Under the pieces are notes generated by a model. That model saw only the letters and a program-made list of their open reading frames with translations, had not been told where the DNA came from and ran no database searches. The position numbers were made by a program, and so were the translations under genes. Positions 7,878 through 24,373 of a stretch of DNA of 37,804 nucleotides are shown one piece after another. The DNA comes from a virus. The DNA is taken from positions 1 to 37,804 of IMG/VR virus record IMGVR_UViG_3300036944_000228, one strand, 5' to 3'. Within the stretch, counting starts at the first letter, position 1. Each line of letters opens with the position of its first letter.

Positions 7878-9137
7878 TTAATATCCGCTAATAACGTCTA
7901 AGACTTCGTAGTCATCATCTTCGTAGTCTTGGTTGTAGTTAGCTATAGCTAGTTGATCAATGTAACTTAGAGCATCTACCAAGTCATCATGTACACCTGC
8001 TGTAGGGAACATAACTAATTGATCTCTAAACTCACCCCAGTCCTCATCCTCATTGAAGGTAATCCTTCCATGCTCCATGCGACCTTGTAAGCTCCAGACA
8101 ACCCTATCAGTCTTCTTCTTATTCCCGTGAGTTAAGTCCTGTATGTGAGCATAGATGTTATTCTTTCTCATCAAGTCATTAAGGTATGGCAGTACAGCAT
8201 TCTTCAATGCTCCTCGCTCAATACCTATGCTTGTAGGTTGAAAGTCTCTAATCACCTTTAAAATGTTAACTGCAGTCTCTCTGATGTCCCACCGACCATG
8301 CTGTATCTTGTGAACCCACCAGTTACCGTTATCCTCTAACTTAACAACTGCAATAGCTGTCTCGTCTAGTCTCTTCTTAGATGCCCCAGCATTCTTACCT
8401 ACCTCTTCAAAACCTGCTAAGTCAATGGCTACAATGTAGCTACCGTAACTAGGTTCTTCAGCAGTCTTGAACCATTCCTCTTTAAAGACATCAGCACCTG
8501 CAGTATCAAAGCTAGACAAATACTCCTGCTTGAATGCAAAGGAACTCAATGTACGCTTTGCAGCTTCAATCTCCTTAGGATCAATAGTCTCATTGTCCTG
8601 CGTTGTGAAGTGCCAGCTCTTCCATTCCTCGTCTGTGTTGTCCTGTCCTAGATTAAAAGTATCGTAGAACCAGTTACGACCACTAGGAGTACTAATGAAC
8701 AGTGCTCTACCCTTCTTATCTGACAGTGAAGCTCGAATGATCTTCTGCCATACATCTTCCTTGATAAAGGCACATTCGTCCATCACTACATAGACTAACG
8801 ACACACCTCGGAGACTATCTGGATTATCAGCTCCTCGTACTAAGATCTTCTTACCGTTGATCAGAGTAATCTCTAAGTTATTCACATGGCTAGACTTAAT
8901 CACAGGTCTACCTAGCTCATGCAGTAAATCCCACATAATCGTTCTAGCTTGTCCTAAGGTAGGTGCTATGTACATCACAGCTGACCCATCTGGACAGTTA
9001 AGACCTTCAATCAGTAACGATACTGCTGACAGTCTAGACTTACCACACCTTCGACCTGCAGCTACTACTTTAAAGCGTGTAGTATCTTTAAAGACACTCT
9101 GCTGCCAATTCAGTAGCTTAAAGTTTAACTCTGTCAT
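7878..9137 (-). CDS. terL: Terminase large subunit
   Basis: 419 residues; its ATG overlaps the stop of the small subunit (ATGA). Visible motifs are Walker A AGRRCGKS (residues 27-34), Walker B YVVMDE (D120-E121), the coupling segment FISTPSG (about 148-153), nuclease acidic residue D239 in YIVAIDLAG, and HDDLVDAL with D384-D385. The ATPase drives DNA packaging through the portal and the RNase H-like domain cuts concatemers. It is shorter than T7 gp19 (586 residues). Confidence 0.95.
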   Translation of the reverse strand: MTELNFKLLNWQQSVFKDTTRFKVVAAGRRCGKSRLSAVSLLIEGLNCPDGSAVMYIAPTLGQARTIMWDLLHELGRPVIKSSHVNNLEITLINGKKILVRGADNPDSLRGVSLVYVVMDECAFIKEDVWQKIIRASLSDKKGRALFISTPSGRNWFYDTFNLGQDNTDEEWKSWHFTTQDNETIDPKEIEAAKRTLSSFAFKQEYLSSFDTAGADVFKEEWFKTAEEPSYGSYIVAIDLAGFEEVGKNAGASKKRLDETAIAVVKLEDNGNWWVHKIQHGRWDIRETAVNILKVIRDFQPTSIGIERGALKNAVLPYLNDLMRKNNIYAHIQDLTHGNKKKTDRVVWSLQGRMEHGRITFNEDEDWGEFRDQLVMFPTAGVHDDLVDALSYIDQLAIANYNQDYEDDDYEVLDVISGY

Positions 9138-9520: not shown

Positions 9521-9564
9521 CGTCTTTGTCCTTTATAGGGAGACTTTTAAGTGTAGTACTATAA

Positions 9565-9592
9565 AGTACCTAAGACATTAACATAAATGTTA
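9565..9592 (+). promoter_or_regulatory. Regulatory element copy A with palindrome
   Basis: Contains TAACAT-AA-ATGTTA, a perfect six-base-arm palindrome, preceded by AGTACCTAAGACAT. Bases 9565-9585 match 13968-13988 at 20 of 21 positions, in the same orientation. Both sites are followed by AT-rich sequence with TACTTATAT. A repressor/activator operator or promoter element is likely; the protein is unknown. Confidence 0.55.
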
Positions 9593-9671
9593 TATAGACA
9601 TAAATATTATAAGTACTTATATTAGTTATTAATATTAATTTACTTAGTAAGTAATATATTATAAGTAACTG

Positions 9672-9697
9672 TTAATAGTGTATTTAACTTCTATGTT
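9672..9697 (-). promoter_or_regulatory. Regulatory element copy B, facing the late arm
   Basis: A 26-base stretch on the minus strand is identical to 13983-14008 on the plus strand. It begins AACATAGAAG and ends TACACTATTAA. It points towards terminase, about 150 bases upstream. TACACT would be the -10, but the -35 position here is poor, so the shared sequence may be a protein-binding site. Confidence 0.6.
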
Positions 9698-9715
9698 CCC
9701 TTTCCAAGGTGTACA
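9695..9715. repeat. 21-bp direct repeat, copy 1 (partner 9865-9885)
   Basis: Begins GTTCCCTTTC and ends AAGGTGTACA. The second copy at 9865-9885 differs at one base (C to T at the eleventh position). The copies are 170 bp apart and non-coding, each preceded by AACTT. Function unknown. Confidence 0.75.
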
Positions 9716-9842
9716 GTTCAGACTTTGTAGTCTTAACTTAGTAGTGGGGTCAGGCTACTTAGTAAACATAGTTATTTCCTATACAGAATATTATACACTA
9801 TGTTTGTCTATTTGTCAAGTCTTTTCTTAAATTTATTTCACT

Positions 9843-9860
9843 TTAGAGTCTAAACTCTAA
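9843..9860. repeat. Inverted repeat TTAGAGT-CTAA-ACTCTAA
   Basis: Seven-base perfect arms around a four-base centre, immediately upstream of the second 21-bp repeat. Could be an operator; there is no U-tract, so it is not a terminator. Confidence 0.55.
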
Positions 9861-9864
9861 CTTA

Positions 9865-9885
9865 GTTCCCTTTCTAAGGTGTACA
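9865..9885. repeat. 21-bp direct repeat, copy 2 (partner 9695-9715)
   Basis: Second copy of the GTTCCCTTTC...AAGGTGTACA repeat, with one mismatch. It lies four bases after the inverted repeat at 9843-9860. Confidence 0.75.
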
Positions 9886-10010
9886 AATTGTCTGTACTTA
9901 TCCTTAATTGTATACACTTTTGAATACATTTTAGATACTTTGTAGTTCTTGTTAGTTTTACTTTGTAGATCAAGGACTTATAGTTACTTCATCTGTCCCT
10001 AATTATCCTT

Positions 10011-10039
10011 TTTTGTGAGCTTCGTAGGCTCCCACAAAA
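10011..10039. other. Hairpin without U-tract
   Basis: TTTTGTGAGC, a seven-base loop, then GCT-CC-CACAAAA: ten pairs with a two-base bulge. The T-rich arm comes first and the A-rich arm last on the plus strand, the reverse of a terminator, and neither strand has a following T-run. It may act as a DNA cruciform or RNA structure. Confidence 0.4.
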
Positions 10040-10098
10040 GTAATCACTAAGTAGTCACCCCTCCCCCCATCAAAGTTAGTTAGTGCTCACTTACAAGG

Positions 10099-10112
10099 TA
10101 CACTATAGGTAG
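10099..10112 (+). repeat. T7/SP6-promoter-core-like direct repeat, copy 1
   Basis: TACACTATAGGTAG, repeated exactly at 10131-10144, 32 bp downstream. The internal CACTATAGG is identical to the melting/initiation core of the T7 promoter, and AGGT-ACACTATAG resembles the SP6 promoter. The genome encodes no recognisable phage RNA polymerase, so promoter use is unproven. The sites may instead bind an initiator protein. Confidence 0.5.
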
Positions 10113-10130
10113 CGTTAGTGAGTACTCACA

Positions 10131-10144
10131 TACACTATAGGTAG
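10131..10144 (+). repeat. T7/SP6-promoter-core-like direct repeat, copy 2
   Basis: Second perfect copy of TACACTATAGGTAG. It is preceded by GTACTCACA, which recalls the ACTCAC of the T7 promoter but with extra bases between. It adjoins the 23-bp tandem repeats. Confidence 0.5.
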
Positions 10145-10145
10145 T

Positions 10146-10191
10146 GTGTCGGAAAGTTGACACTAGAGGTGTCGGAATATTGACAGTGTGT
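10146..10191 (+). repeat. Two 23-bp tandem repeats (GTGTCGGAA..TTGACA)
   Basis: Units at 10146-10168 and 10169-10191 share GTGTCGGAA, two variable bases, then TTGACA. The TTGACA hexamers are exactly 23 bp apart. A further 10-bp tandem pair (GTGTAGGTCG, GTGTAGGTGG) overlaps at 10188-10207. The TTGACA hexamers have no good -10 at 17 bp, so these look like protein-binding repeats rather than promoters. Confidence 0.65.
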
Positions 10192-10240
10192 AGGTCGGTG
10201 TAGGTGGCTTTAAAGGATACTCAGGGTTAACCCTTAGAAG

Positions 10241-10360
10241 TACTCCATAGGGTATCAAGGATACTTTATAGGGTATGCAAAATACTAGGCAGGGTATATC
10301 TAAAGTTATTCACAAGTTATTAACACCTTGTGGATAAGGTACTGGCGGGGGTATACAGTT
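10241..10360 (+). repeat. 21-bp origin iterons, TACT-N4-(A/G)GGGTAT
   Basis: Three units in perfect 21-bp tandem at 10241-10261, 10262-10282 and 10283-10303 share TACT, four variable bases, then AGGGTAT. A fourth unit at 10340-10360 has GGGGTAT. A 21-bp period puts all sites on one face of the helix, as in iterons bound by plasmid and phage replication initiators. The gap between units three and four holds two of the DnaA-like boxes. Confidence 0.75.
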
Positions 10361-10403
10361 ATACACAGGTTAAGTCTTATATAAGAGTTAGAATTGTGGA
10401 TAA
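10306..10403. other. DnaA-box cluster, part of putative replication origin
   Basis: Four 9-mers fit TTATNCACA: TTATTCACA (10306-10314, plus), TGTGGATAA (10329-10337, minus, perfect TTATCCACA), TTATACACA (10359-10367, plus) and TGTGGATAA (10395-10403, minus, perfect). With the adjacent iterons and AT-rich flanks this looks like an origin using host DnaA with a phage initiator. T7-like phages usually start at promoters, so this would be a different mode. The initiator gene is not identified. Confidence 0.7.
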
Positions 10404-10628
10404 GTACTAGTTCTGGTGTTAGTAACTTCTGCCAAGGGGTAAGGTACTACTTGAGCTTGAACGTCACCACGGGGCTATAAATGGCCTTCCTGATACCATG
10501 AGAAAAACTCTTACATATTGTGAGAAAAAGTATAGATTATTTACAGTTTGTAAGGTTCACGTAAGGTAGCTCTGGATAATTGAGGGCAAGACAGAAGCAA
10601 TAGTGCACTGTTAAACTCAGGAGAATGT

Positions 10629-10808: not shown

Positions 10809-11033
10809 ATGAAATATCAAGCAATCTTTGACATCTGGGCAGTGCCTACAGACCTACTAAAGCACGTTCAAGCGGGTCAAATGGTCTACGCAGGTGACAA
10901 GTCTAACAAAGGCAGATTCTTAGGTGTACGCAAAACAGGCAGTATTGTAGTAGCTTGGCAGGGTAATGTCCAAGCTCACTCTGACAAGATGGGCTACATT
11001 AAATCACTTCGTAACTATGCAAAGGGAGCATAA
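10809..11033 (+). CDS. Small hypothetical early protein
   Basis: 74 residues. MKYQAIFDIWAVPTDLLKHVQAGQMVYAG..., then GRFLGVRKTGSIVVAWQGN, suggests a small beta-barrel-like fold with a basic C-terminus (YIKSLRNYAKGA). No family is recognised. It lies in the early cluster where T7-like phages encode host-takeover proteins. Confidence 0.65.
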   Translation: MKYQAIFDIWAVPTDLLKHVQAGQMVYAGDKSNKGRFLGVRKTGSIVVAWQGNVQAHSDKMGYIKSLRNYAKGA

Positions 11034-14352: not shown

Positions 14353-14576
14353 CTGATATTGACGATACAAAACCTTGGCCTTTTCCGTCTGCAACCTTAG
14401 CAGGTGACTCAAGCCTTAAAGCTTTAGCTGATACACTATCAATGCTAGAGGATTTCACAGCTTTTCAGCTTCGAGGCGACATCTACTATGGATACCCTGA
14501 TAAAAAGGCTCTGAGCACGATTGAAGGGCTACGGGAGGCATTGAAACCAGTTGACGGAGGCAACGTAGATGCTTAG
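14349..14576 (+). CDS. Small hypothetical protein before primase
   Basis: 75 residues, MTDIDDTKPWPFPSATLAGD..., helical and acidic. It overlaps the primase-helicase start by eight bases and carries the primase RBS (GGAGG) in its last codons. Unknown function. Confidence 0.55.
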   Translation: MTDIDDTKPWPFPSATLAGDSSLKALADTLSMLEDFTAFQLRGDIYYGYPDKKALSTIEGLREALKPVDGGNVDA

Positions 14577-16191
14577 CATAGTACGTAAACCAAGTGAGTC
14601 AAAGTTTGTTAAGCACATTCCCTGTGAGTACTGTGGTAGCTCAGATGCAGGTGCTTTATACGATGACAATCACACCTATTGCTTTAACTGCCATGAAACT
14701 CATCATGAGAATGAATATGATGACTTCACAGTTAAGCGAGATGCAGTACAACCACGAAAGACAGTCATGATAGAGCCTAAAGGGACTATTAAATCAATAC
14801 CTGATCGAGGTATTAACTTACAAACCTGTGAGAAGTATGGAGTCACTCAAGATGCACAGAATCACTTTTACCCTTACACTGACGACAGTGGAACCATTGT
14901 CGCCTACAAAACACGAAGAGTTGCTGAAAAGTCTTTTTCAATTAACGGAACCTTTCACAATGCACGGTTGTTTGGGCAAGGTCTCTTCCACGCAGGAGGC
15001 AAATACGTCACAATCTACGAAGGAGAACTCGACGCACTCGCAGGCTACCAACTCACCGGAAGCCAGTGGCCTAGTGTCTCTATACGGAATGGTGCGCAAG
15101 CGGCCTTAAAGGACTGCAAAGCCCAGTATGAATGGCTAAACAGCTTTGAGAACATTGTGATCTGCTTTGATGCTGATGAGCCGGGTAAGAAGGCTTCTAA
15201 AGAGGTAGCTGAACTGTTCGGACAGAAGGCTAAGATTGTTAAGCATTTGAGTGGCTACAAAGATGCTTGTGATTACCTCATTGCAGGGGCTACTAAAGAG
15301 TTCGTGAATGAGTGGTGGAGAGCTGAGGTTTATATCCCCGATGGGATTATCAATGCAGCTTCACTGTGGGAGGAAGTTATTAAACCTGAGGCTAAGGCTG
15401 AGGCTATGTATCCTTGGAAGGGCTTGAATAAGCTTCTCTACGGTCTACGACCTTCGGAGTTAGTGACAGTCACAGCAGGTTCAGGCTTAGGTAAGAGTCA
15501 GTTCCTACGTGAGATATTGTTTAACATTCTGAACACTACGAAGTGGAACATTGGAGGGTTATTCCTCGAAGAGTCAACTCGTAAGACAGCTAGAAGTATC
15601 ATGTCTTTGCACGCTAATAAGTTGTTGCACTTACCTGATACACCAACAACAGAACAGGAGCTTAAAAATGCATTTGATGCAACACTTGGGAGTAATCGTA
15701 TCTATCTCTTTGATCATTTCGGGAGTAGCGATGTTGACAATATATCGAACAGAATTAGATACATGGCTAAAGCTTGCGATTGTAGGGTTATATTTCTTGA
15801 TCACATTTCCATTGTTGTATCTGGCCAAGATTTAGGTGATGAACGTAAAGCCATTGATAACATGATGACGAAGCTTCGTACACTGGTTCAAGAGTTAGAG
15901 ATTACATTGATCTGTGTAAGCCACCTTCGTAGACCTCAAGGTAATGCAGGACATGAGGATGGACAAGCTGTATCGTTGTCTCAGCTGCGAGGCTCAGGCT
16001 CTATTGCTCAGCTGTCAGATGCTGTTATTACATTGGAGCGTAACAGCATGGCTGAGGATGAGAATGAACGTCACATGACTAAGATAGCTGTGGCTAAGAA
16101 TCGTTACAATGGCTATACAGGCCCAGCTTGTGTACTTAAGTATGATATGGAAACTGGACGTATGATGGAGATGCAGGAGGAAGTGCTATGA
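14569..16191 (+). CDS. Bifunctional DNA primase-helicase (T7 gp4-like)
   Basis: 540 residues, near the 566 of T7 gp4. An N-terminal zinc finger has C19, C22, C38 and C41. The TOPRIM primase core has E151 (YEGELDALAG) and D201-D203 (CFDADEPGKKA). The RecA-like helicase has Walker A GSGLGKS (304-310), Walker B VIFLDH (D411) and CVSHLRRP near residue 446. An acidic C-terminus (MQEEVL) could contact the polymerase. It unwinds DNA at the fork and lays primers. The same operon carries polymerase, SSB and nucleases. Confidence 0.93.
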   Translation: MLSIVRKPSESKFVKHIPCEYCGSSDAGALYDDNHTYCFNCHETHHENEYDDFTVKRDAVQPRKTVMIEPKGTIKSIPDRGINLQTCEKYGVTQDAQNHFYPYTDDSGTIVAYKTRRVAEKSFSINGTFHNARLFGQGLFHAGGKYVTIYEGELDALAGYQLTGSQWPSVSIRNGAQAALKDCKAQYEWLNSFENIVICFDADEPGKKASKEVAELFGQKAKIVKHLSGYKDACDYLIAGATKEFVNEWWRAEVYIPDGIINAASLWEEVIKPEAKAEAMYPWKGLNKLLYGLRPSELVTVTAGSGLGKSQFLREILFNILNTTKWNIGGLFLEESTRKTARSIMSLHANKLLHLPDTPTTEQELKNAFDATLGSNRIYLFDHFGSSDVDNISNRIRYMAKACDCRVIFLDHISIVVSGQDLGDERKAIDNMMTKLRTLVQELEITLICVSHLRRPQGNAGHEDGQAVSLSQLRGSGSIAQLSDAVITLERNSMAEDENERHMTKIAVAKNRYNGYTGPACVLKYDMETGRMMEMQEEVL

Positions 16192-16957: not shown

Positions 16958-17136
16958 TGGACTTAGATAAGATAGCTGGTAGAATGATTGACTTGGAAAG
17001 TAAGTACTATGATCTGCAAGAAAAATATCAACTGCTTATCCATCACTATGAAGACTTGAAAGCTGAGTATGAAACGTATCGTTCTAGACATCGAGACAAC
17101 ATTAGATCACAACACGATCTGGATGGTAGTAACTAA
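16954..17136 (+). CDS. Small coiled-coil protein
   Basis: 60 residues, almost entirely helical with heptad character (KIAGRMIDLESKYYDLQEKY, then LLIHHYEDLKAEYETYRSRH). It starts in an ATGA overlap and its last 68 bases overlap the polymerase gene in another frame. Unknown function. Confidence 0.55.
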   Translation: MMDLDKIAGRMIDLESKYYDLQEKYQLLIHHYEDLKAEYETYRSRHRDNIRSQHDLDGSN

Positions 17137-18787
17137 GGATATTGACACTGGAGAAGTTAACGTATGGAAAGCAGCAAACAACCTCGTGGAGTATTTAAAG
17201 GACACTACGTTGATAATCGCTCAGAACGGAATAAGCTTCGATTTCCCGATACTCAATCGGCTCTGGAATACGAAGATTCGTTTGAGCCAAGTGTACGATA
17301 CGTTGATAGCCTCAAGGTTGTTAAATCCCTCAATAGAGAACGGGCACAGCTTAGAAGCTTGGGGCGACAGGATGGGATCGATAAAGAAAGTTGACTACAA
17401 AAGGATATGGCAATGGTTAATGGACAAGAAAGAAGAGTACAAAGGTGAGTGCTTTAACGTTCCTCATATGTCTCTTCTGGAGTATTATTGCATTAGGGAC
17501 GTTGAGGTCACTTGTAATCTTTATAAGCATCTTACTGATGAATTCGCTAAGAAAGACTTTTCACAAGAAAGCCTTGATCTTGAGCATAAGGTAGCTGCTA
17601 TCATAGCTGAACAGGAACGTAATGGCTTCAAACTTGACTTACCCTTCGCAACCTGCTTACTTGCTGACATCAAAGGAAAGATGGCAGGAATATATGAGCA
17701 GATGCAAGAGAGGTGGCCTCCAGTCATCACTCCAAGGTTCCACAAGACCAATGGAAAGCCTATCAAAGACTGCATTGATACTTTCAATCCCGGAAGTAGA
17801 AAGCAGATCGGAGAAAAGCTGATGGAGCTAGGATGGAAGCCTAAAGACTTTACTGAGAAGGGGCAGCCCATTGTCGATGAATCTGTACTGGCTAAGGTTA
17901 AGATTCCTGAGGCTCAGATGATCGCTGAATACCTGATGTTACAGAAACGTGTAGCTCAGATTGAAAGTTGGTTAGAGGCTGTAGGTAAGGACGGTAGAGT
18001 TCACGGTAAGGTGATCACGAATGGAGCTGTAACAGGTAGGATGACACACAGTAGTCCTAACATGGCACAGATTCCTAATGCAGGTAGCATCTATGGAAAA
18101 GAATGTAGAGAGTGTTGGACTGTGGAAGGCGGTAACGTATTGGTTGGTTGTGACGCTAGTGGCCTTGAGCTTCGTATGCTTGCACATTACATGAAAGATG
18201 AAAGTTATGTTAAGACGGTCACTGAAGGATCATCAAAGGATGGAACTGATGTACACACGCAGAACCAAAAAGCTGCAGGTCTTGAGACAAGGGATCAAGC
18301 GAAGACATTTATTTACGCATTCCTATACGGTGCAGGGCCAGCTAAGATTGGTTCCATTGTCGGTGGTAATGCTAAAGCGGGAGAGAAACTTATCAATGCC
18401 TTTCTCAAGAACACTCCCGCCTTACAACGTCTTAGAAATACGGTTAGCAGATATGCGGGTAAGGGCTTTGTACCGGGGCTTGATGGTCGTAAGATATGGG
18501 TACGCAGTGAACACGCTGCCCTCAATTCGCTCCTTCAAGGGGCTGGGGCGATAGTGATGAAGAAAGCTTTAGTACTATTTTATGATAAGACTAAGGCAAA
18601 TAAGTGGCCTGTCAAGCTAGTAGCTAATGTCCATGATGAATTTCAGCTTGAAGTTCCTAAGGAATATGCTACAATAGTAGGTGAGGCTGCAAAGGCAAGT
18701 ATCGTTGAAGCTGGGGAGTACTTTAAGCTTCGTTGTCCATTAGACGGGGAGTATAAATATGGTGCAAACTGGCGTGAAACACATTGA
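17069..18787 (+). CDS. DNA polymerase, family A, with 3'-5' exonuclease (T7 gp5-like)
   Basis: 572 residues (T7 gp5 has 704). The exonuclease domain has DIETT (D7, E9), N53...D58, and Y140...D144. The polymerase domain has motif A CDASGLELR (D362), motif B RDQAKTFIYAFLYG (R408, K412, Y416) and motif C VANVHDEFQLE (H522, D523, E524). Y416 aligns with E. coli Pol I Phe762 and T7 Tyr526; the Tyr form is associated with virulent phages. It replicates the genome with the primase-helicase and SSB encoded nearby. The start lies inside the previous gene. Confidence 0.95.
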   Translation: MKRIVLDIETTLDHNTIWMVVTKDIDTGEVNVWKAANNLVEYLKDTTLIIAQNGISFDFPILNRLWNTKIRLSQVYDTLIASRLLNPSIENGHSLEAWGDRMGSIKKVDYKRIWQWLMDKKEEYKGECFNVPHMSLLEYYCIRDVEVTCNLYKHLTDEFAKKDFSQESLDLEHKVAAIIAEQERNGFKLDLPFATCLLADIKGKMAGIYEQMQERWPPVITPRFHKTNGKPIKDCIDTFNPGSRKQIGEKLMELGWKPKDFTEKGQPIVDESVLAKVKIPEAQMIAEYLMLQKRVAQIESWLEAVGKDGRVHGKVITNGAVTGRMTHSSPNMAQIPNAGSIYGKECRECWTVEGGNVLVGCDASGLELRMLAHYMKDESYVKTVTEGSSKDGTDVHTQNQKAAGLETRDQAKTFIYAFLYGAGPAKIGSIVGGNAKAGEKLINAFLKNTPALQRLRNTVSRYAGKGFVPGLDGRKIWVRSEHAALNSLLQGAGAIVMKKALVLFYDKTKANKWPVKLVANVHDEFQLEVPKEYATIVGEAAKASIVEAGEYFKLRCPLDGEYKYGANWRETH

Positions 18788-22471: not shown

Positions 22472-24373
22472 ATGACAACTATGACACCATACCAAGAATA
22501 CATTGGCAAGAGCCGCTACTCTCGCTACTTGGATGATAAGGGACGCAGGGAGCATTGGCCTGAGACAGTCAATCGCTACTTTGAGTTCATGACTAAGCAA
22601 TTGAAGACTAACCATAACTACGACATTCCAGCAGCTATGCGTAAAGAGTTGCAGGATGCTGTAACTAATTTGGAAGTTGTGCCTTCAATGCGTAGCATCA
22701 TGACAGCTGGTGATGCCTTAGAGCGTCAGAACATTGCAGGTTATAACTGTTCATACCTGCCTATAGATGATCCTAAAGCATTTGATGAAGCTATGTACAT
22801 TCTGTTGTGCGGAACAGGTGTAGGGTTTAGTGTGGAGCAAAAGTATGTATCTAAGTTACCTGAGATCCCAACTGAGTTGTACAATAGTGGCACTGTCATT
22901 AATGTTAAGGACTCCAAAGAAGGCTGGGCTAAGGCGTTACGACAAGTTATTGCCTTACTGTATGCTGGAGAAGTGCCTAAGTGGGATGTTTCGAGTGTAC
23001 GTCCAGCAGGTACAAGGCTCAAGACTTTTGGTGGAAGAGCATCAGGGCCGGAGCCACTTGTTGACTTGTTCAAGTATGTGGTTGCAAAGTTTCGTGGAGC
23101 GGTTGGACGGAAGCTCACCTCTCTTGAAGCACATGACATTCTATGTAAGGTCGGAGAAGTCGTGGTTGTTGGTGGTGTACGACGATCAGCAATGATCTCA
23201 CTGTCAGACTTGAGTGATGATCGTATGGCTCACGCTAAAGCTGGTAACTGGTGGGACGGTAATGGTCAACGTGCCTTGGCTAACAACAGTGCCATCTACG
23301 AAGTTAAGCCTGATGTAGGTAAGTTCATGCGTGAGTGGTCAAGCATTTATGAATCACACTCAGGAGAGCGAGGTATCTTTAATCGTTATGCAAGTGAACT
23401 TCAAGCAGCTAAGAATGGACGTAGGGAGTTGGGTAAAGAGTGGGGTACAAACCCTTGCAGTGAGATTATCCTTAGACCTTATCAATTTTGTAATCTGTCT
23501 TCTGTTATTGTTCGGAGCAGCGATAGTGTGGATACTCTACGGAATAAAGTGCGCTTGGCTACTATTCTGGGGACTTTTCAATCGACGATGACTCACTTCC
23601 CGTACCTGCGTAAGGTGTGGCAGACTAACACTGAAGAGGAACGTTTGTTGGGTGTGTCAATGACTGGTATCTTGGATAACACTTTGTTGAATAATCCTGA
23701 TGATCCTTACTTGCCAACTATCCTAGAGGACTTTAAAGATGTGGCTATTAACACTAACGCTGAGTTGGCTGATGCTATCGGTATTAACCGTAGTGCTGCC
23801 ATCACTGCCATTAAGCCAGAAGGAACTGTCTCTCAGCTTACAGGCACTGCTAGTGGTATCCATCCTCAGCACAGTCAGTACTTTATTCGTCGTGTACGAT
23901 CAGATAACAAAGATCCTCTGACTGACTTCTTGAAAGAGCAAGGATTCCCAGCTGAGCCATGTGTTATGAAGCCTGAGAGTACTACAGTGTTTAGCTTCCC
24001 AATGCGAGTTGAGAAGGGTGCTGTACTGCGTGAGGACTTGAATGCTATTAAGCACTTGAAGCTGTGGTTGTTGTTCCAGCGTCACTACTGTGAGCATAAG
24101 CCTTCAGTGACAATCTCAGTGAACGAGACTGAATGGCCTGAAGTTGGAGCTTGGGTGTGGAATAACTTTGATGAGATTACAGGTGTGAGCTTCTTGCCTA
24201 TGGATGGAGGAACATATCGACAAGCTCCTTATGAGTCCATCAATGAGTTTGAGTATCACGATATGGTATCTAAGATGCCTCTAGGTATTGACTGGGATAA
24301 GTTCATTGAACGTACAGACAATGTTGAAGGTTCTCAGACACTAGCTTGCACTGCTGGAGGCTGTGAAATCTAA
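22472..24373 (+). CDS. Class II (adenosylcobalamin-dependent) ribonucleotide reductase
   Basis: 633 residues, like monomeric RTPR of Lactobacillus leichmannii (739). The conserved cysteine set is visible: C93 in GYNCSYLP, C329 and E331 in NPCSEI, C340 eleven residues on in QFCNLSS, and the C-terminal pair C626/C631 in CTAGGC. It reduces ribonucleoside triphosphates to dNTPs using vitamin B12 as radical source, without oxygen or a second subunit. The C-terminal cysteines need re-reduction, fitting the glutaredoxin encoded right after (1-base overlap). Confidence 0.95.
   Translation: MTTMTPYQEYIGKSRYSRYLDDKGRREHWPETVNRYFEFMTKQLKTNHNYDIPAAMRKELQDAVTNLEVVPSMRSIMTAGDALERQNIAGYNCSYLPIDDPKAFDEAMYILLCGTGVGFSVEQKYVSKLPEIPTELYNSGTVINVKDSKEGWAKALRQVIALLYAGEVPKWDVSSVRPAGTRLKTFGGRASGPEPLVDLFKYVVAKFRGAVGRKLTSLEAHDILCKVGEVVVVGGVRRSAMISLSDLSDDRMAHAKAGNWWDGNGQRALANNSAIYEVKPDVGKFMREWSSIYESHSGERGIFNRYASELQAAKNGRRELGKEWGTNPCSEIILRPYQFCNLSSVIVRSSDSVDTLRNKVRLATILGTFQSTMTHFPYLRKVWQTNTEEERLLGVSMTGILDNTLLNNPDDPYLPTILEDFKDVAINTNAELADAIGINRSAAITAIKPEGTVSQLTGTASGIHPQHSQYFIRRVRSDNKDPLTDFLKEQGFPAEPCVMKPESTTVFSFPMRVEKGAVLREDLNAIKHLKLWLLFQRHYCEHKPSVTISVNETEWPEVGAWVWNNFDEITGVSFLPMDGGTYRQAPYESINEFEYHDMVSKMPLGIDWDKFIERTDNVEGSQTLACTAGGCEI

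Follow-up and report, generated by a model that had tools for sequence, protein, structure and literature searches.

To our knowledge, it is not settled how T7-type replisomes start replication when the phage has no RNA polymerase of its own. This question is raised by a freshwater bacterial virus with T7-type replication genes, whose 37.8-kb stretch of DNA (37,804 nucleotides, hereafter the window) was described in an initial annotation as carrying, at 10241-10403, an iteron plus DnaA-box origin built on the plan of iteron plasmids. Two premises of that proposal were borne out. The fork proteins are T7-like, with a primase-helicase, likely the fork helicase, and a family A DNA polymerase, and the phage also has exonuclease, endonuclease I and ribonucleotide reductase. 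No single-subunit phage RNA polymerase was found in the window with the PF00940 profile, while the positive control P26059B scored E 3.7e-93. Considering that TerL shares less than 32% identity with its counterparts in the highest-listed phages from culture, the group seems to lack a close cultured member. We infer a host in the Burkholderiales from the form of the NrdR boxes and from the hosts of phages sharing the block.

The control region and its sites

The cluster lies in a non-coding control region with a leftward TerS/TerL operon on one side and a rightward early operon on the other. The features are as follows (relatives of types A to D are described below).

9521-10628: non-coding control region of 1.1 kb, from the ORF list
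9790-9818, minus strand: sigma-70 promoter TTGACA-17-TATAAT toward the TerS/TerL operon, 12/12 consensus match
10008-10032: element CTTTTTTGTG-N2-CTT-N3-AGGCTCC, present in 20/22 type A, 5/5 type C, 6/6 type B and 6/7 type D relatives
10100-10115: putative NrdR box 1, ACACTATAGGTAGCGT
10132-10147: putative NrdR box 2, ACACTATAGGTAGTGT, 32 bp from box 1
10146-10185: two dyads, GTGTCGGAAAGTTGACA and GTGTCGGAATATTGACA, from a repeat search; also in several relatives
10241-10255, plus strand: iteron 1, TACTCCATAGGGTAT, exact TACT-N4-AGGGTAT
10262-10276, plus strand: iteron 2, TACTTTATAGGGTAT, exact TACT-N4-AGGGTAT
10283-10297, plus strand: iteron 3, TACTAGGCAGGGTAT, exact TACT-N4-AGGGTAT
10306-10314, plus strand: DnaA box 1, TTATTCACA, matching TTATNCACA
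10329-10337, minus strand: DnaA box 2, TTATCCACA, matching TTATNCACA
10340-10354, plus strand: iteron 4, TACTGGCGGGGGTAT, degenerate with one mismatch (GGGGTAT); the copy most often kept in relatives
10359-10367, plus strand: DnaA box 3, TTATACACA, matching TTATNCACA; left flank of the core
10375-10386: AT-rich palindrome TCTTATATAAGA, putative core of a host SdhR operator; invariant in aligned type-A relatives
10395-10403, minus strand: DnaA box 4, TTATCCACA, matching TTATNCACA; right flank of the core
10417-10439: degenerate third inverted box (TGTTAGTAA) and conserved tail AACTTCTGCCAAGGGG; most aligned cassettes read GGTGTGGATAACTTTTTCCAAGGGG
10549-10565, plus strand: TGTAAGGTTCACGTAAG element, 5' of the first early gene, in 15/22 type A, 5/7 type D and 0/41 other loci
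10809-11033, plus strand: E2, an early protein of 74 aa (phrog_21585)
14569-16191, plus strand: T7-type primase-helicase (phrog_239, E 3e-188)
17069-18787, plus strand: family A DNA polymerase (phrog_17, E 3e-150)

A pattern scan agreed with the initial annotation on the three iterons in exact tandem, whose 21-bp spacing makes them helically phased direct repeats, and on the four TTATNCACA-type boxes, two of them TTATCCACA on the minus strand. The fourth iteron was placed correctly but is a degenerate unit, and the description of repeats and boxes as interleaved fits iteron 4 alone, which lies between boxes 2 and 3; iterons 1-3 are upstream of the boxes. By eye, the iterons are also imperfect dyads, TACTC-CATA-GGGTA. 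The four boxes fall within 98 bp, only one more (at 8878) occurs elsewhere in the 37.8 kb, and a degenerate fifth box, TTATTAACA, is found at 10317. In 2000 first-order Markov versions of the 1.1-kb intergenic region, the mean number of TTATNCACA boxes was 0.08 and none had two boxes within 98 bp, while the iteron motif appeared once in 10 versions and twice in none. The DnaA-box cluster is not due to chance.

The AT-rich stretch between the convergent boxes 3 and 4 is TCTTATATAAGA, which also forms the middle of the SdhR operator TCTTATGTCTTATATAAGACATAAGA described in PMC4494728. In betaproteobacteria, TCTTATATAAGA lies upstream of mdh, aceA, icd and a divergent gene for a GntR regulator, as these genes were named by reading their sequence rather than by profile search. 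Outside this centre, the operator arms TCTTATG/CATAAGA were weakly kept in the cassettes (3.05 and 3.14 of 7 positions, against 2.1 when shuffled) and were fuller in type D relatives. By motif identity, TCTTATATAAGA in the phage block corresponds to the core of the operator of SdhR, the host regulator of the TCA cycle.

Upstream of the cluster, the pair at 10100/10132 is a putative tandem site of the host NrdR type. In host-family genomes the same motif stands in tandem, 31-32 bp apart, before genes reading as ribonucleotide reductases, and 32-bp pairs also occur in relatives of the phage. The geometry of the pair matches that of the tandem NrdR sites given in PMC2892513, where NrdR, Fur and DnaA sites are reported together at nrd promoters. 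The phage itself encodes a ribonucleotide reductase (22472-24373). Of the 70 relatives, 22 have a Fur-box-like site, AATGAGAATCATTCGCATT, in the control region, between TerS and the box module (L107, L142, L136, L112, L019 and others); such sites are about 35-fold denser there than elsewhere, and none occurs in the window itself. Consensus sigma-54 promoters were present in 5/5 type C loci (L087, L113, L126, L133 and L141), 4/6 type B loci (L019, L022, L120 and L138) and 5/8 box-only loci, and in 0/22 type-A loci. The control region thus reads as a putative hub of host-regulator sites, NrdR and SdhR in the window, with Fur and sigma-54 in relatives, a feature absent from the initial annotation, and therefore a transcriptional role for DnaA stays in play.

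Several other features of the region were recorded. In 53 of 70 relatives, the initial 600 bp contain a leftward sigma-70 promoter with at least 11/12 matches, and in the window the perfect copy is bracketed by a 21-bp direct repeat, GTTCCCTTTCYAAGGTGTACA, at 9695-9715 and 9865-9885. The 10008-10032 element is independent of the box module, because it is kept in types A, B, C and D, and a C-rich run at about 10060-10070, just after it, is conserved with it whatever the module; together they are possibly a packaging or terminus signal. The dyads at 10146-10185 can also be read as GTGTCGGAA-N2-TTGACA. An Rfam search of the region gave no match.

Conservation, replacement and spread of the module

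Relatives were gathered by TerL and helicase scans (160 loci), and a set of 70 loci picked without regard to origin motifs included 22 of type A, the window among them. In these 70 loci, exact DnaA boxes numbered 1.53 per kb in the control region versus 0.051 per kb elsewhere. Type-A relatives keep box order and spacing, typically +0, -23, +53, -89, and the core has the fixed order of DnaA box, TCTTATATAAGA, inverted DnaA box; the sequence between boxes drifts while boxes and core stay. The iterons vary from 0 to 4 copies among the 22 type-A relatives and are often absent, and the quartet of the window (21, 21 and 57 bp) was found in 6 of them. In these comparisons the conserved part is the DnaA boxes, not the iterons.

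At the same place, relatives with 84-99% identical helicases (and a few more distant ones) carry other modules. In type B, a sigma-54 promoter is accompanied by NtrC-like sites and by four inverted DnaA boxes; in type C, such a promoter goes with CGGCAATATTTGCC repeats; type D has arrays of SdhR operators. The NtrC-like sites and the CGGCAATATTTGCC repeats lie upstream of the sigma-54 promoter. Modules without DnaA boxes occur in very close relatives (helicase 98.5% identical in L085 and 97.4% in L087), and no box cluster was found anywhere in the near-complete type C and D genomes. DnaA boxes are not obligatory for this replisome, because relatives whose helicases are 97-99% identical have box-free modules, and nothing weighs more heavily against a simple origin claim. 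The initial annotation had held that absence of repeats and boxes from close relatives would refute its proposal; half of this was seen, in those box-free relatives, while type A keeps its boxes. An early protein of about 290 aa (MQIKIFSNSAQKFKALQG...) with a TCPGAGECLDFCYSF motif was seen in the early regions of L085, L111, L112 and L141; it is linked to type-D loci (5/7), and none was seen in the window.

The block also occurs outside this group. A blastn search matched it to Limnohabitans phage DC31, and the DC31 block then matched Curvibacter phage P26059A; both matches are non-coding, with the cassette at 20.2-20.4 kb in DC31 and at 72.3 kb in P26059A, and in other respects the two phages, of 76 and 84 kb, belong to a different kind. 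At least 120 viral stretches matched the pattern TCTTATATAAGA-N4-14-TGTGGA in a scan, most of those examined having 2-13 boxes and some cassettes 9-13. The invariance of the 12-mer in these matches is partly due to selection, because the 12-mer was in the query; the upstream box and the downstream GGTGTGGATAACTTTTTCCAAGGGG were absent from the query, and the invariance in type A comes from loci found by TerL or helicase. The core with flanking boxes was also found in contigs of 74-84 kb. DC31, P26059A and four of the 74-84 kb contigs combine the cassette with a T7-type helicase, and a 39-kb phage (L209) combines it with a different primase. In a different 39-kb podovirus of similar genome plan, with a primase unlike the T7 type, 12 DnaA boxes were seen within 450 bp (L399, 7252-7705). 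No plasmid relatives of the block were found, and among 74 matches of the TCTTATATAAGA+TGTGGA pattern in bacterial genomes none lay inside a DnaA-box cluster. Because unrelated viruses share it, the block looks like a portable switch or a starting point of viral DNA copying that the host operates, and the DnaA-SdhR-DnaA core may have moved between unrelated phages. The DnaA-box cluster of the initial annotation thus retains its position, box order and spacing among relatives and recurs in unrelated phages.

A proposed replicator worked by host DnaA, and its alternatives

From this computational analysis we tentatively propose, with confidence a little short of even, that the block at 10241-10439 acts as a portable replicator which host DnaA operates within a hub of host-regulator sites. 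Host DnaA would bind the four boxes (up to 13 in other phages), and boxes 3 and 4, which converge on the AT-rich TCTTATATAAGA core, would bend or melt the core stretch. The primase-helicase, with no phage RNA polymerase to open the DNA, would enter at the core and start forks. Host SdhR on the core and host NrdR, a dATP-sensing repressor, on the upstream tandem boxes would probably gate firing or early transcription by host state, and the TACTN4AGGGTAT repeats would be an optional accessory rather than a Rep-type iteron system. An origin is favoured by the number of boxes, their fixed geometry at an AT-rich core, the spread of the block, the absence of a phage polymerase and of an initiator, and the lack of a recognisable promoter in the cassette. 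The DnaA-assisted initiation suggested in the initial annotation retains the cluster and the missing polymerase on its side; the iteron plan is not supported, and the box-free relatives tell against such initiation.

Two other measures were set aside as evidence. Cumulative GC skew has its minimum at 10071, where the gene strand also flips, and it was rejected as independent proof of an origin because the skew of DC31 and P26059A follows gene strand and not the cassette. Flanking-gene orientation, as a test of origin or promoter, was too noisy to use. It speaks against an origin that the least stable DNA of the window was at 9.6 kb, not at the AT-rich core.

Early-transcription control is a genuine possibility, though we lean against it. 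Host DnaA would act here as a regulator with SdhR and NrdR, as at nrdAB or lambda ori/pR, and replication would begin elsewhere or be primed by transcripts of the host RNA polymerase. Nine to 13 boxes in both orientations exceed the usual need of promoter control, no promoter is recognisable inside the cassette (no sigma-70-like site was found on the plus strand from 10200 to 10620), and the 85-bp core recurs in unrelated phages beside different genes. On the other side, the neighbouring sites belong to transcription regulators, the same position in relatives holds plainly transcriptional-looking modules (sigma-54, NtrC-like sites, SdhR arrays, Fur), and types A and D alone share the downstream TGTAAGGTTCACGTAAG element. 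Moreover, DnaA stimulates transcriptional activation of ori-lambda (PMC3985674), and NrdR, Fur and DnaA sites stand together at nrd promoters (PMC2892513).

It is unlikely that the boxes serve for titration, in which phage copies would soak up host DnaA and stop initiation of the host chromosome, like datA. Such a sink would not need strict order, spacing or a fixed 12-bp core between two boxes; many strong boxes per genome, multiplied by phage copy number, would suit it, and so would the fact that not every relative needs them. The readings as origin, transcriptional control and titration may overlap, by analogy with lambda, where DnaA acts on origin-activating transcription (PMC3985674).

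An iteron replicator served by a phage initiator that one of the early genes encodes, the core of the initial proposal, now seems very improbable. It would explain the 21-bp tandem repeats, and the best candidate initiator, E2, was found in 18 of 45 type-A loci versus 0 of 40 others (Fisher p 1.4e-6, relatedness ignored) and also in DC31. However, the iterons range from 0 to 4 and are often absent, 27 of the 45 type-A loci are without E2, and its homologues occur in many other phages. E2 matched no solved sequence, its model (pLDDT 87, best of five) matched no solved fold, and it was rejected as a universal initiator. No Rep or initiator domain was detected among 42 scanned ORFs (Pfam, PHROGs), and none of the early gene families is common to all genomes with DnaA boxes. 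That the block is a copy of host chromosomal oriC has next to no probability: a bacterial contig scan, nine sampled dnaA-upstream regions (without a box cluster) and a profile search of 301 host-family genomes gave weak matches at best, one of them an rpmH-dnaA intergenic region (L367, E 0.008), and the exact core pattern sits at metabolic promoters in betaproteobacteria.

In a wider reading, to which we give almost even weight, the control region would be a swappable "host-state sensor" of interchangeable host-regulator modules in freshwater betaproteobacterial podoviruses, with the DnaA-SdhR-DnaA core spread between unrelated phages. The proposed modules are DnaA, SdhR (TCA cycle), NrdR (dNTPs), Fur (iron) and NtrC/sigma-54 (nitrogen), which would couple the onset of replication, or early transcription, to the physiological state of the host. 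This region suggests that lytic phages sense the nutrient and dNTP status of the host by way of its regulators and that regulator modules are exchanged like cassettes. The host-DnaA replicator, if true, would explain how replication starts in an abundant freshwater clade that has no close relative in culture. Two phages that are in culture, Limnohabitans phage DC31 and Curvibacter phage P26059A, carry the block and make it open to test.

Comparison with known systems

DnaA boxes in phage origins are already known; the open-access literature searched yielded no description of a block in lytic phages that combines DnaA boxes with sites for SdhR and NrdR and passes from phage to phage. Bacterial oriC likewise has several DnaA boxes in both orientations within 100-450 bp and an AT-rich stretch between them, and the present block shares with it a box cluster beyond chance with conserved order and spacing. 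It differs in lying on lytic phages, in the host SdhR core fixed between two boxes and in having no sequence match to host oriC. The T7 primary origin is transcription-primed; this phage likewise has a T7-type primase-helicase and polymerase, but it is without the phage RNA polymerase, and its CACTATAGG copies, rejected as T7 promoters, are NrdR boxes. In iteron plasmid origins worked by Rep and DnaA, of the pSC101 and P1 oriR type, DnaA boxes likewise adjoin direct repeats spaced by two turns of the helix. Phased repeats are present here; they are neither required nor conserved, and no nearby Rep gene was detected.

In phage lambda, host DnaA sites likewise lie near the phage origin and early promoter (PMC3985674), but lambda has the O/P initiators, and none were found in this phage. 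Finally, host nrd promoters bring NrdR, DnaA and Fur sites, the same regulator set, into one control region (PMC2892513); here the set stands in a phage control region, with the tandem NrdR boxes 32 bp apart at 10100/10132 and with the central TCTTATATAAGA of the SdhR operator added at 10375-10386.
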